Assembly: GCA_017433295.1 (NCBI GenBank)
Contig: JAFRHL010000035.1
Span: 37,338 to 101,337, forward strand
Direction: 5' to 3'
DNA length: 64,000 nucleotides
Origin: Eubacterium sp.
GTDB lineage: Bacteria > Bacillota > Clostridia > Lachnospirales > Lachnospiraceae
Each line of letters starts with the position of its first letter. Positions within the stretch are counted from its first letter, which is position 1. Below, piece after piece: positions 48,790 to 53,146 of this stretch. The notes under the pieces were generated by a model. The model did no database searches and had not been told where the DNA came from. It saw only the letters and a list, made by a program, of their open reading frames with translations. The position numbers were made by a program, and so were the translations under genes.

Positions 48790-49269
48790 ATGAGTAACCA
48801 GGTTTGGAAGTTCCACAATGATGTGGACACCGATCAGATCATTGCTTCCCAGTATCTGCTCCTGCCAAACGTTGAAGAAATGAAACAGTACACCTTTGAA
48901 TCCCTGGATCCTTATTTTGCAAAAAAGGCTCAGCCCGGAGATATCGTTGTGGCCGGTGAAAATTTCGGCTGCGGTTCTTCCAGGGAACAGGCTCCCAGCG
49001 TCCTGAAGGCTCTGGGCATTAAGGCTGTTGTTGCCAGATCCTTTGCCCGGATCTTCTACCGCAACTCCATCAATATCGGCTTTCCGGTAATCGTCTGCAA
49101 AGATCTCTATGACAATGTGGAAGATGGAGACACAGCGGATCTTGATCTGTCTGCCGGAACGGTAACTGCCGGAGGGAAGACGTTTTCCTGTACCAGACTG
49201 CCTGAATACATGCAGAATATCCTGTCCCAGGGCGGACTGATCGCATCTTTGAATAAGGAGGAGGCTTGA
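48790..49269 (+). CDS. Aconitase-family hydro-lyase small subunit, pair 1 (LeuD-like)
   Basis: The 159-residue protein is a swivel-domain subunit: NDVDTDQIIASQYL, the GENFGCGSSREQAPSVLKALG loop, and SFARIFYRNSINIGFP. It works with the large subunit encoded next (three-base gap). The family isomerises hydroxy-acids such as isopropylmalate, homocitrate or methyl-malate-type substrates. Without other leu genes nearby the substrate cannot be fixed. Confidence 0.88.
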   Translation: MSNQVWKFHNDVDTDQIIASQYLLLPNVEEMKQYTFESLDPYFAKKAQPGDIVVAGENFGCGSSREQAPSVLKALGIKAVVARSFARIFYRNSINIGFPVIVCKDLYDNVEDGDTADLDLSAGTVTAGGKTFSCTRLPEYMQNILSQGGLIASLNKEEA

Positions 49270-49271
49270 CC

Positions 49272-50528
49272 ATGGGAATGACAATCGGTGAGAAAATAAT
49301 TGCCAGAGCAGCGGGAGTCAGTGAAGTAAAACCCAATGATATCCATACAGTGGCTCTGGACCGTATGATGAGTAATGACGGTACTACCCACCTGACGGTT
49401 GATATGTATAATAACAGACTTAAGCATCCTCATATCGCCGACAAGGACAAGGTGGTCTTCATCATGGACCATAATGTGCCGGCCGAGAATCCTAAAACCG
49501 CTGAGGCCCATAAGAAAATGCGCAATTTTGCCAGGGAAAACGGGATCAGGCTTTATGAGGGTCAGGGGGTCTGCCACCAGATCATGATGGAGGACTATGT
49601 ATGTCCCGGCGAGCTGATCTTCGGCGCGGATTCCCACACCACCAGCTATGGCGCTCTGGGCGCCTTCGGCACAGGTGTAGGCTGTACCGATTTCCTCTAC
49701 GGTATGGTCACGGGGACTTCCTGGGTGATGGTTCCGGAGACACTTCGTTTTAATCTCCACGGCAGGCTCCGGGAGGGTGTTTATGCCAGAGACCTGATCC
49801 TCACCATCATCGGTGATATCGGGGCCAACGGAGCCACCTACAAGATCATGGAATTTGCCGGTGACGGAGCCCGTAACCTGACCATTGATGAGCGTATGGT
49901 CCTATGCAACCTGACTGTGGAGGCAGGCGCCAAGGCAGGTATCGTGGAACCTGACGAAAAGGTTGAAGAATACTGCAAAGCCCATGGCAGAGAAGCTGTC
50001 CATATGTTTAAGAGTGATGAAGACGCCCACTTCGCCGCAGTATATGAATACGATCTTGATAAGATCGAACCTGTGGTGGTCCGCCCGGATTTCGTGGATA
50101 ATTTCGCCCTGCTTAAAGATGTAAAAAATGAAAAGATTGCTGTGGATGAAGTATTTGTAGGCTCCTGCAACAACGGCCGGCTGCCTGACCTGAAAGCCGC
50201 TGCCGATGTGGTTAAGGGCAGAAAGGTTTCACCTTCCGTCCGTTTCCTGGTGGCCCCCGCTTCAAAGGCGGTCTATATCGATGCTCTGAAAGAAGGCATC
50301 ATCACCACCCTTATGGAGGCAGGCGCCATGATCATGAACTGCAACTGTTCTGTCTGCTGGGGCAGCTGCCAGGGCGTCATCGGAGAAAATGAAGTGCTGA
50401 TCTCCACGGGAACCAGGAATTTTAAAGGCCGGGCAGGACATCCCAGCTCCAAGGTCTACCTTGCCAATGCCGCCACCTGTGCAGCCTCCGCTGTCGCCGG
50501 CTATATATGCGGACCGGAGGATCTTTAA
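49272..50528 (+). CDS. Aconitase-family hydro-lyase large subunit, pair 1 (LeuC-like, altered cluster motif)
   Basis: The 418-residue protein has GADSHTTSYGALGAFGTG, VGSCNNGRLPDL (usual GSCTNGR) and NCNCSVCWGSCQG where the family normally has PGCGxCxG. The three cluster cysteines appear retained, but their surroundings differ from the second pair. ATG 49272 follows GGAGGCTTGACC. This points to a substrate different from isopropylmalate. Confidence 0.85.
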   Translation: MGMTIGEKIIARAAGVSEVKPNDIHTVALDRMMSNDGTTHLTVDMYNNRLKHPHIADKDKVVFIMDHNVPAENPKTAEAHKKMRNFARENGIRLYEGQGVCHQIMMEDYVCPGELIFGADSHTTSYGALGAFGTGVGCTDFLYGMVTGTSWVMVPETLRFNLHGRLREGVYARDLILTIIGDIGANGATYKIMEFAGDGARNLTIDERMVLCNLTVEAGAKAGIVEPDEKVEEYCKAHGREAVHMFKSDEDAHFAAVYEYDLDKIEPVVVRPDFVDNFALLKDVKNEKIAVDEVFVGSCNNGRLPDLKAAADVVKGRKVSPSVRFLVAPASKAVYIDALKEGIITTLMEAGAMIMNCNCSVCWGSCQGVIGENEVLISTGTRNFKGRAGHPSSKVYLANAATCAASAVAGYICGPEDL

Positions 50529-50533
50529 GTTAC

Positions 50534-50570
50534 TATGGTGAACGTCAAAATTGATTAGACGTTCACTATA
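50534..50570. promoter_or_regulatory. Inverted repeat between the two LeuCD-like pairs
   Basis: TATGGTGAACGTC (50534-50546) and GACGTTCACTATA (50558-50570) pair over 13 positions with one G-U, loop 11 bases. No T-run follows. It sits between stop 50528 and start 50620 and may be an operator or attenuating hairpin. Confidence 0.5.
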
Positions 50571-50619
50571 AAATTTCCCGCATAGTTGACTGAACTATTA
50601 AAAGAAAGGACTTTATCTT

Positions 50620-51105
50620 ATGGAAAAGTTTACAGGTAAAGTATGGGTTCTGGGAGACGATATTGATACGGATATCATTATCCCCACCGACTACCTTGCC
50701 CTTCCCACTGTAGAAGATATGAAACAATACGGCTTCTCTCCTCTCCGCCCGGACCTGGCCTCCAGGATCGGCGAGGGGGATATCATCGTTGCCGGGAAAA
50801 ATTTCGGCTGCGGTTCCTCCCGTGAACAGGCCCCGGAAATCATCAAGGCTCTTAAAGTAAAATGTGTCATCGCAAAATCCTATGCCCGTATCTTTTTCCG
50901 CAACTCCATCAACAACGGCCTTCTCCTGATTGAAAACAGCCAAATTCAGGACGCGGTAAAAGAAGGGGACCAGATCACCGTGACAGTCGGAGAATCCATC
51001 GAACACAATGGTAAGGTTTATCCTGTGGCCTCCCTGCCGGAAAACCTGATGGAAATCATCAATGCAGGCGGTCTGGTAAAAGCCATGCAAAAACGGAATG
51101 CCTGA
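50620..51105 (+). CDS. Aconitase-family hydro-lyase small subunit, pair 2 (LeuD-like)
   Basis: The 161-residue protein has DDIDTDIIIPTDYLALPTVEDM, GKNFGCGSSREQAPEIIKAL and SYARIFFRNSINNGL. It is about half identical by eye to the pair-1 subunit, so a tandem duplication with divergence is likely. AAAGAAAGGA precedes the ATG. Confidence 0.88.
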   Translation: MEKFTGKVWVLGDDIDTDIIIPTDYLALPTVEDMKQYGFSPLRPDLASRIGEGDIIVAGKNFGCGSSREQAPEIIKALKVKCVIAKSYARIFFRNSINNGLLLIENSQIQDAVKEGDQITVTVGESIEHNGKVYPVASLPENLMEIINAGGLVKAMQKRNA

Positions 51106-51130
51106 TTGCAAAAATATGAAAGGAGCTGTC

Positions 51131-52375
51131 ATGGGACACACACTGATTGAAAAAATAATTATGAAAAATGTCGGGGCAGATCACGTAGAACCGGGCCAGA
51201 TCGTCACAGTAAATGTGGACCGGGTCATGATCCATGATATTTTCATTCCTTTTGTTGCGGATAAGTTTGAAGAAATGGGTTTTAAAAAGCTGTGGGATCC
51301 TGATAAAGTGGTCCTGATTTATGACCACCTGGTTCCCGCCAGCGCAGTGGAGGATATCCGCCACTTTAAGATCGGAGATGCCTTTGTGGAAAAATACGGG
51401 CTGATCCATGTACACCGCAGCGACGGGATCTGCCATCAGCTGATGACAGAGGCCGGATACGCAAAGCCCGGTGACATCGTCTTCGGAACAGATTCCCACA
51501 CCACCACTTACGGCTGTGTCGGCTGTTTTTCATCCGGCATCGGCTATACCGAGATGGCCTCCATCCTGGGAACCGGTCAGATGTGGGTAAGGGTACCGGA
51601 AACCATAAAAGTGATCATCAACGGAAAGCTGCCTTCTAATGTAACTGCCAAGGATGTGATCCTCCGGCTCATCGGCGACCTCCGGGCAGACGGAGCAACC
51701 TATAAAGCCCTGGAGATCACAGGATCCACCGTCGATGCCATGAGCGTGGCCTCCCGGATGACCATCTCCAATATGGCTGTTGAAGCCGGAGCAAAATGCT
51801 GCCTCTTCAAACCCGACCAAAAGACCTGTGAATATTCCGGAGTTGAGCCGGCTCAGGTGGACTGGTTGTATGGAGATGAAGATGCTAATTATTGTAAGAT
51901 AATGGAATACCGGGCAGATGACCTGGTGCCCGTCTGCGCCTGTCCGTCTCAGGTGGATAATATCCACCCGGTAGCAGAAATTGAGGGAACTGAACTGGAT
52001 CAGGTATTTATCGGATCCTGCACCAACGGTCGTCTTGAGGACCTGGCAGTTGCAGCAAAGATCCTTGACGGAAAAGAAACTGCCTGCAAGCTGATCATTA
52101 CCCCTGCCAGCCGGAAGATCTACCTTGAGGCCATCGAAGCCGGTTACATGGAGATCCTGGCCCGGGCCGGCGCCATCATCACCCAGCCGGGCTGTGGTCT
52201 GTGCTGCGGCAGAGCCGGCGGAATACTGACTGACGGCGAAAAAGTCCTGGCCACCAATAACCGGAATTTCCTCGGCAGGATGGGGACATCGAAAGTACAG
52301 ATTTATCTCGGTTCACCCGCCACGGCAGCAACCTCGGCGATTTACGGAAAGATAACTGTGCCGGAAAATTGTTGA
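51131..52375 (+). CDS. Aconitase-family hydro-lyase large subunit, pair 2 (LeuC-like)
   Basis: The 414-residue protein has canonical motifs GTDSHTTTYGCVGCFSSGIG, IGSCTNGRLEDLAVAA and QPGCGLCCGRAGG, with all three 4Fe-4S cysteines. ATG 51131 follows AAAGGAGC. Of the two large subunits this one is closer to ordinary isopropylmalate/homoaconitate dehydratases. Confidence 0.88.
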   Translation: MGHTLIEKIIMKNVGADHVEPGQIVTVNVDRVMIHDIFIPFVADKFEEMGFKKLWDPDKVVLIYDHLVPASAVEDIRHFKIGDAFVEKYGLIHVHRSDGICHQLMTEAGYAKPGDIVFGTDSHTTTYGCVGCFSSGIGYTEMASILGTGQMWVRVPETIKVIINGKLPSNVTAKDVILRLIGDLRADGATYKALEITGSTVDAMSVASRMTISNMAVEAGAKCCLFKPDQKTCEYSGVEPAQVDWLYGDEDANYCKIMEYRADDLVPVCACPSQVDNIHPVAEIEGTELDQVFIGSCTNGRLEDLAVAAKILDGKETACKLIITPASRKIYLEAIEAGYMEILARAGAIITQPGCGLCCGRAGGILTDGEKVLATNNRNFLGRMGTSKVQIYLGSPATAATSAIYGKITVPENC

Positions 52376-52420
52376 TTTGCGGAGTTTGGTTTGATTTTGC
52401 CAGGTAGACACAGAGAAAAA

Positions 52421-52532
52421 GAGGGGGTATATGTCTGCAAGTTCCGTTGCTCCTCGGAAATCAAAGCCCTGTGGCTGTTATTGTTCAGTGATTTCCTGCG
52501 GTGCAAAGTCACTTTCAGACATATACCCCCTC
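52421..52532 (-). ncRNA. Structured non-coding element, copy A
   Basis: A 17-bp outer stem (GAGGGGGTATATGTCTG at 52421-52437, its complement at 52516-52532) encloses the inner stems AAGT/ACTT and GGAAATCA/TGATTTCC. Between them lies a conserved internal loop, CTTTGCACCGCA facing GAGGAGCAACGGA (read on the minus strand). Copy B has the same loop with different but matching stems. No open frame. Confidence 0.6.
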
Positions 52533-52670
52533 CTCTGCTGCTGTTTACTGGCTAACAAGGGGCAAACCTGTCATATCCTTCTATTCAGATAAACATCTTC
52601 CCTGAGCCGATAATAGGACGAATTCCAAGAAAGATATTTCCGGGGTTTTTTACTTTTCATCCAGCATACA

Positions 52671-52798
52671 GCCGGGCGGGGCCCATAAATCTCCACAGGT
52701 GTCTTTGCACCGCAGGAAATCAAAAAACAAGAACTGCCATATAACATCGTTTTCCGAGGAGGAACGGAACCTGGGGAGATTTATGGGTCCCGCCCGGC
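52671..52798 (+). ncRNA. Structured non-coding element, copy B (inverted relative to copy A)
   Basis: A 24-bp outer stem (52671-52694 with 52775-52798, one G-U) encloses inner stems AGGT/ACCT and GGAAA/TTTCC. The same internal loop CTTTGCACCGCA facing GAGGAGGAACGGA lies between. Loop sequence is conserved with copy A while stem sequence is not. It may be a structured RNA or a hairpin-type mobile repeat. Confidence 0.6.
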
Positions 52799-52839
52799 AT
52801 TTGTATGTAGAAACTAAAACTGTCCCCGCAGATCAGCAA

Positions 52840-53079
52840 TTACCTCTGCGGATGTTCCCTCAGCCACATCACAATATCATCACTCTCATAGAGCGGCTTT
52901 CCGTCGATAAAGAGACAGGGCACCTGTTCCTTTCCGCCCACCAGCTTTAAATACAATCTGTCCGCCTCACTTTTGCGGATATCATGCAGTTCCACATCGG
53001 TTCGTCCGCTGCTTTCGATTTCGCGGATCACTTTCCTGCAATAGGGGCATGTTTCAAACATATATAGTTTTAATCCCAT
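52840..53079 (-). CDS. Glutaredoxin-like protein
   Basis: The 79-residue protein is a compact thioredoxin fold: LYMFETCPYCRKV with the redox CPYC motif, the cis-Pro strand EQVPCLFIDG and a YESDDIVMWL helix. It would reduce disulfides or mixed thiols. The ATG 53079 follows GGAGGAG. Confidence 0.9.
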   Translation of the reverse strand: MGLKLYMFETCPYCRKVIREIESSGRTDVELHDIRKSEADRLYLKLVGGKEQVPCLFIDGKPLYESDDIVMWLREHPQR

Positions 53080-53146
53080 GGTCAATCTCCTCCGTAATAA
53101 TTAATTATAATCAAAAATAGTAAACGAATCCGCGCCGAGATCAGTA

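Follow-up and report, generated by a model that had tools for sequence, protein, structure and literature searches.

Long-armed hairpins with covarying arms in a Eubacterium genome are probably dispersed, palindromic DNA elements

Introduction

REPs are extragenic palindromes of 20 to 40 bp that occur many times per genome, form inverted dimers, lie near 3' ends and are found between convergent or unidirectional open reading frames (PMC3733652). According to the same study, the ends of GTAG REPs often supply a stop codon, and CGTC repeats, which have stems of 8 to 9 bp and loops of 4 to 5 nt, have no known transposase; five phyla are named as carriers of CGTC repeats, and Firmicutes does not appear in the accessible text (PMC3733652). 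In REPINs, the dispersed unit is an inverted pair together with its spacer (PMC3116915). A mutational process acts on palindromes as well: template switching between the arms of an inverted repeat homogenises those arms, as described in yeast (PMC8604942) and in a further study (PMC7202029).

Here we analyse two inverted hairpins in a 64,000-nucleotide stretch of DNA from Eubacterium sp. (the window), which is part of G000, a draft genome comprising 2.9 Mb in 56 contigs. When repeated hairpins covary, this is usually taken to indicate functional RNA. We compare the hairpins with related copies in this and other genomes and consider whether their covariation has an RNA-level or a DNA-level cause.

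Results

The two hairpins of the original prediction, copies A and B, are both present in the window. Copy A occupies positions 52421 to 52532 on the minus strand, where its arms (52421-52442 and 52511-52532) enclose a core at 52443-52510 made up of GACTTTGCACCGCA, an apical stem and GAGGAGCAACGGA. Copy B occupies positions 52671 to 52798 on the plus strand, with arms at 52671-52700 and 52769-52798 and a core at 52701-52768 (GTCTTTGCACCGCA, an apical stem and GAGGAGGAACGGA); within GTCTTTGCACCGCA it has GTC, where most other copies have GAC or GCC. Judged by palindrome scores, the arms contain one mismatch in copy A and two in copy B. The internal loop, the change from AAGT/ACTT to AGGT/ACCT and the retained stem of the GGAAA/TTTCC type were all confirmed in both copies. 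The outer stems had been described as unrelated in sequence; they do differ between A and B, but each belongs to an arm type that recurs in this genome, the two recurring types being roughly CAGCAGAGGAGGGGTATATGTCTG and CAGCCGGAAGGGGCC..ATCTCCCC. The feet of the window's copies are degenerate (TGTC in A and ATTT in B).

RNA folding of the named strands gave z scores of -9.7 (A) and -8.6 (B), with none of 200 shuffles equalling the native sequence, and RNA folding of the opposite strands gave -7.6 and -7.5; when the copies were folded as DNA, the scores were -8.3 and -8.6. Both strands therefore fold well, as RNA and as DNA, and folding alone selects neither a strand nor a nucleic acid.

Together with an unstranded spacer (52543-52669) that is included in the homology with other paired units, the hairpins form a two-hairpin unit, likewise unstranded, that runs from end repeat to end repeat (52369-52839) and occupies the gap between two convergent genes. 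The left neighbour encodes an aconitase-family protein (51098-52375, plus strand; Pfam PF00330) and the right neighbour a glutaredoxin-family protein (52840-53085, minus strand; Pfam PF00462). The left end repeat (52369-52383, plus strand) has 3 mismatches of 15 to ATGTTGANTTGTGGG, and the TGA stop codon of the aconitase-family gene (52373-52375) falls within it. The right end repeat (52825-52839, minus strand), which abuts the stop codon of the glutaredoxin-family gene (52840-52842), has 4 mismatches of 15; matches with 4 or 5 mismatches also arise by chance in the end-repeat scan, and the assignment of the right end rests on position too. Four consecutive open reading frames at 48790-52375 resemble two tandem small/large subunit pairs of an aconitase-family enzyme, with Pfam Aconitase or Aconitase_C on the three that were scanned (the first, 48790-49269, was left unscanned).

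Homologues of the aconitase-family gene occur in 21 other genomes of the genus, 20 of which have sequence beyond it, though just 90 nt in one case; none of these 20 genomes showed a model match or a hairpin of the window's form there. In G011 alone, a glutaredoxin gene lies behind the aconitase-family gene in convergent orientation, with approximately 150 bp between the two and no unit. In this comparison the unit thus occurs in one lineage and, as G011 shows, is dispensable to the two genes. A different hairpin, with a 26-bp stem, was observed between the same two convergent genes in G011 (L304).

The family extends far beyond the two copies first described. An exact core pattern matched 30 copies in the window's genome; neither a reversed control nor 98 other genomes gave any match. 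A covariance model built from these 30 copies identified 38 distinct full copies in G000, where its 69 matches include the opposite strand of near-palindromic copies, and relatives carry copies too. Three further pieces in G000 are partial or lie at contig edges; contig C43 starts within an element and contig C27 ends within one. The hairpins measure approximately 110 to 130 bp, and their ungapped arms have a median length of 29 positions in the 38 own copies and 21.5 positions in 24 copies from relatives. A census of long palindromes counted 19 in 458 kb of G000 and 58 in 400 kb of another genome of the genus, G004. Four further palindromes of G000 (L285:7101-7200, L287:213-341, L287:16861-16962 and L289:6500-6579) have perfect arms of 31 to 32 bp and unrelated inner parts.

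Full copies that lie less than 450 bp apart form eight close pairs in G000, including that of the window, and all eight have the order minus-then-plus; the remaining 22 of the 38 full copies lie outside such pairs. Four of the paired units (those of the window, L075, L077 and L088) are clearly homologous, with best alignments of 70 to 85% over approximately 440 to 520 bases that extend up to some 40 to 48 bp past the hairpins. The window's unit is 72 to 74% identical to the paired units of L075 and L088 over 473 to 480 aligned bases, and the units of L078, L080 and L095 reach mostly 60 to 67% identity, a weak similarity that, under permissive scoring, proves little.

Several units are bounded by an end repeat related to ATGTTGA(G/T)TTGTGGGG. 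When up to two mismatches were allowed, this repeat matched 17 times in G000 and not at all in a reversed control, and a comparison of coordinates placed 16 of the 17 matches within about 320 bp of a hairpin; the window's own end repeats are more diverged than this cut-off. The single-hairpin units L092, L090_7893 and L093 have the end repeat on both sides. By eye, both arms of L092, L090 and L093 look like right-type arms of different copies, the pattern that recombination between inverted elements would be expected to give. No target-site duplication was visible by eye at the listed unit ends, where old insertions could have lost one, and by eye no such end repeats were noticed in genomes other than G000. 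On contig C36 of G000 (L132, approximately 1501-1517), a copy of the end repeat that deviates by one mismatch reaches into the final codons of a 441-aa open reading frame, with no hairpin seen; this match is possibly a solo end or a product of chance.

The arms covary strongly, and pairing is largely kept. Three outcomes that the original prediction had named as refuting it, namely no copies beyond these two, an Rfam match and lost pairing elsewhere, did not arise. Across the 30 exact-core copies, 92.5% of 1050 cells are paired, compared to 77.2% in shuffles, and two-sided changes occupy 155 cells, compared to 46.6 in shuffles, and affect 21 of 35 pairs; the covariation score is 0.412, against 0.134 after shuffling and at most 0.138 with the partner slid. 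Likewise, in an alignment of 50 copies from seven genomes, 89.8% of cells are paired (71.8% in shuffles), there are 262 two-sided changes (78.5 in shuffles) and the covariation score is 0.510 (0.175 shuffled). This alignment (A3) holds 50 of 62 anchored copies from a list of 63, of which L086_3458 could not be anchored; the 12 anchored copies outside it are L087, L084, L088_2998, L074_4772, L077_3099, two of L090, L082_7021, L092, L093, L081 and L121, and outside the list of 63 stand L100, L102, L113, L114, L124, L122_4707 and the contig-edge pieces L079_1 and L073_3242. Arm positions are Watson-Crick at 94% of 1008 positions in G000 and at 90% of 471 positions in the relatives.

The 4x4 internal loop of the core, GACT/CGGA, is nearly fixed across the 50 copies, with G.A in 49, A.G in 40 and C.A in 8, C-G in 50 and T.C in 49. 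In the inner helix, a C-G pair is replaced by U-A at columns 24/91 in 19 of 50 copies (TTGC/GCAA to TTGT/ACAA) and by G-C at columns 26/89 in 5 of 50 (CC/GG to GC/GC), and pair 23/92 is broken (G.G) in 15 of 50. Some genomes retain little besides GACTTTG (or GCCTTTG) opposite AACGGA, AACGAA or AACAGA, and in these same genomes the apical parts differ or are nearly absent. Repeated stretches in G009 (L121:2600-3030) contain a miniature core, CCTTTGTACCGYAGGRCAACGAAG, from which the apical extension is absent. A tag at the foot, 5' CAG opposite 3' CGTCTG, is less constant than the internal loop: 26 of 39 own copies but only 8 of 24 copies from relatives have CGTC close to the 3' foot on the core strand.

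A second class of element was found in G004, where 42 elements share another core (TAGTCGC.../...GCTCCGA and variants) and have variable, nearly perfect arms. The exact class 2 pattern, GTAGTCGC N25-55 GCTCCGA, has 105 matches in G004, 4 in G017, 1 in G008 and none in the other 21 genomes, and its reversed control gave 2 matches, both in G022; the match in G008, which has no resemblance beyond the pattern, is probably due to chance. Read by eye on its other strand, the class 2 core presents CGGA opposite GACT, that is, the class 1 loop in flipped orientation. Of the 42 class 2 elements, 35 carry GACG at their 5' foot and 38 carry TG on the 3' side; in class 1, the matching strand has CAGACG...CTG. 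Three longer palindromes in G004 (L252:5484-5647, L257:12592-12757 and L261:15510-15677), with an inner part of 96 to 118 nt, contain GACTTTGCGC...GCGCAACGGA and represent a larger relative of class 1.

With a broader covariance model (E <= 1e-3), 10 of the 24 genomes of the genus gave matches, namely G000 and 9 of the 23 others, G017 only at 3.8e-4. Some sites are shared between genomes: G016, G012 and G010 have an element after truA, G005 and G009 have one beside fhs, and a single gene pair bears one in both G016 and G012. In most of the remaining genomes, the 330 nt after truA or fhs contain no such element. Copies at the same gene in several genomes fit vertical inheritance and perhaps function. 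In the comparison of L097 with L104, 14 of 34 arm pairs differ, 6 of these being Watson-Crick in both, and the flanks are 87% and the cores 93% identical; between L101 and L120, 20 of 34 arm pairs differ, 5 of them Watson-Crick in both. Rapid, en bloc replacement of arms at shared sites was considered as a general rule and dropped, because L101 and L107 differ at just 2 of 34 arm positions.

Beyond the genus, a loose exact pattern run against 84,980 species representatives, a set from which near-window records may be absent, returned 24 stretches; 22 of these are contigs belonging to five assemblies, which correspond to G005, G010, G011, G012 and G016, and the other two (L176 and L179) lack the stem and have no model match. 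A family-level model search, which took one genome per genus and the best 20 candidates per genome and may miss divergent forms, found only the window's genome among 200. A phage or plasmid origin was rejected, as the exact pattern had no match in viral contigs and blastn of the window's unit had none in plasmid or phage records. The genes between two distant copies in L082 look, by eye, like ordinary chromosomal genes.

The elements are enriched between convergent genes. The 77 gaps that hold an element divide into 37 convergent, 32 tandem and 8 divergent ones, compared with 77, 298 and 80, respectively, of 455 control gaps taken, element gaps included, from 400 kb of G004 and 458 kb of G000 with a crude open reading frame caller (convergent enrichment, 37/77 versus 77/455, Fisher p 1.4e-8); the depletion of divergent gaps was not significant (p 0.14). 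By group, the convergent/tandem/divergent counts are 10/15/1 for class 2 in G004, 11/13/5 for own class 1 copies in G000 and 16/4/2 for the relatives, which had no control of their own. The median distance from hairpin to nearest stop codon is 20 nt for class 2 in G004 (25 gaps), 42 nt for own class 1 copies (24 gaps) and 17 nt for the relatives (20 gaps). A rule that the core strand lies antisense to the nearest gene was dropped, since it mostly follows from the pair arrangement and the convergent gaps.

Under selection for RNA pairing, A.C should be tolerated less well than G.U. At the 1479 arm positions of class 1 there are 1372 Watson-Crick pairs, with 9 G.T and 24 A.C on the listed strand, and class 2 arms have 1190 at 1210 positions, with 7 G.T and 8 A.C; these counts end where pairing ends, which lowers all mismatches and treats G.T and A.C alike. 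In 22 copies of class 2a, compared over 24 positions, there are 49 two-sided Watson-Crick changes versus 8 unpaired or wobble ones (1 G.T and 7 other mismatches). The excess of A.C in class 1 (9 versus 24) has a p value of 0.014, which is optimistic in that the copies are related; the same excess is one of G.U on the opposite strand (24 versus 9), which leaves room for an RNA made from that strand. Twenty tRNAs served as a wobble control and had 31 G.U and no A.C, by way of illustration only, as the tRNA finder favours G.U over A.C. Strong covariation with no preference for G.U speaks more for a process at the level of DNA than for a functional RNA. The original prediction had taken compensating stems as the hallmark of a selected RNA (or hairpin DNA) structure; the covariation stands, but the step from it to RNA is unsafe here, because template switching also equalises arms (PMC8604942).

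No Rfam 15 model matched the hairpins at gathering level in the window, and at permissive thresholds 52380-52840 and 14 other loci yielded nothing but sub-threshold matches on the hairpins. In 52380-52840 there were six of these, to microRNA, FTX and plasmid-antisense models. Matches to 6S RNA and the ZTP riboswitch were discarded, as they lie elsewhere in the loci and not on the hairpins. The initial failure to recognise the element as a known RNA family is in agreement with these searches.

Discussion

In this study, we have described a family of hairpins that we judge to be, on balance, a non-autonomous, dispersed palindromic DNA element of a REP/REPIN- or MITE-like kind, with arms that may be homogenised by template switching. 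Among the three guesses made for the window's hairpins, a hairpin-type mobile repeat is the one that fits best, on the basis of the dispersed homologous units, the end repeats and the absence of the unit from one other genome in which the gene pair is adjacent.

We postulate that the element is moved in trans by an enzyme that reads the irregularities of the folded DNA hairpin instead of the sequence of the arms; insertion or persistence would then be more likely at sites where neither a promoter nor a reading frame is disrupted. The match between the arms would be maintained by template switching, with one arm serving as the model for the other, or by a restriction of movement to copies that fold well, and the internal loop may be kept because the enzyme needs it. 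Template switching should tend to erase both the internal loop and the bulge at the foot, and their persistence suggests that both are under selection. A Y1 transposase is unsupported as the mobiliser, since Y1 genes do not track with the carriers in these draft genomes: PF01797 was found in 16 of 24 genomes, with none in the carriers G009, G010 and G011 and a single truncated match at a contig edge in G000.

A bolder proposal, which we offer tentatively and consider rather doubtful, is that there is a superfamily of mobile palindromes recognised by structure, in which the enzyme would read only irregularities of a folded DNA hairpin, namely the CGTC/GACG foot and the GACT/CGGA loop facing either way. 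The arm sequence would carry little or no information, the second arm being copied anew from the first whenever the element moves, or else through frequent template switching, and genomes of one genus would for that reason carry different core classes at copy numbers from none found to more than 100.

The best of the rival explanations is a 3'-end RNA element, a hairpin that is transcribed from the flanking genes and ends or protects convergent transcripts, so that selection on RNA pairing causes the covariation. It would account for the enrichment in convergent gaps, the median distances of 17 to 42 nt to the nearest stop codon, the very stable RNA folds and the positions shared among several genomes, and the 24 A.C and 9 G.T of the listed strand in class 1 become G.U and A.C, respectively, on the other strand. 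However, neither the listed strand nor class 2 shows an excess of wobble pairs, Rfam has no match to the hairpins, and most genomes examined lack such an element after the three genes that were tested. Furthermore, although its location suits the terminator that was one of the original guesses, the two terminator-like matches in 52200-53000 are weak, with stems of 5 bp, and shuffles give 0.9. We therefore regard a 3'-end RNA element as unlikely.

It is less probable still that the hairpins are protein-bound chromosomal sites, for example in nucleoid organisation or replication, where irregularities of the hairpin or duplex serve as the binding site and copies spread by recombination and not by transposition. 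Such a site could explain why the internal loop is nearly fixed with the arms left free, why the same loop recurs flipped in class 2 (by eye) and why the arms of the single-hairpin L092, L090 and L093 look, by eye, like right-type arms of different copies; an essential site, however, is poorly suited by copy numbers that range from none found to more than 100 within one genus, and the unit ends resemble those of mobile elements.

A trans-acting, structured sRNA family or ribozyme is very improbable: covarying core helices (TTGC/GCAA to TTGT/ACAA in 19/50, CC/GG to GC/GC in 5/50) and the A.G to C.A change in the internal loop (8/50) would suit it, but the structured sRNA first suggested gains no positive support, since the named strand does not favour G.U, 52200-53000 lacks a promoter-like site and Rfam has no match, and at least two core classes exist in one genus.

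If the hairpins are dispersed palindromic DNA elements, as we favour, the family suggests that a process on DNA can give rise to strong covariation, and an RNA cause could be told from a DNA cause simply by the ratio of wobble pairs to A.C mismatches. G004, a one-contig genome with more than 100 copies, makes a search for the enzyme practical. No prior report of the element was recognised in the literature searched, which was mostly outside subscription journals and is no proof of absence.

The element is reminiscent of REPs in that it is extragenic, lies 3' of genes and in convergent gaps and forms inverted pairs, and in that the left end of the window's unit supplies a stop codon. Unlike REPs, it is approximately 110 to 130 bp long, with long arms and a conserved internal loop, and its CGTC, where present, lies near the 3' foot of the core strand, so that the side differs. 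As in REPINs, an inverted pair with a spacer is the repeating unit; however, each half is itself a long hairpin, there are separate end repeats of approximately 15 to 17 bp, many copies are single and no link to a RAYT (a Y1 tyrosine transposase) was found in the draft genomes. With MITEs (PMC10969869) it shares being short, non-coding and dispersed, with inverted end repeats (in G000 only), but no target duplication was visible by eye, and the search for a parent transposon, confined to the one end-repeat match with no hairpin nearby (C36), met the end of an open reading frame. Homogenisation by template switching explains two-sided changes in the arms with no selection on RNA; it is a mutational process and not an element, and it explains neither the kept loop nor the dispersal.

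In conclusion, the element works like those of the REP and MITE kind, but we assign it to no named family, since it departs from REPs in size and stem and no RAYT link was found. The REP-like elements, of which some are likewise without a known transposase, would gain a long-armed variant from Firmicutes.
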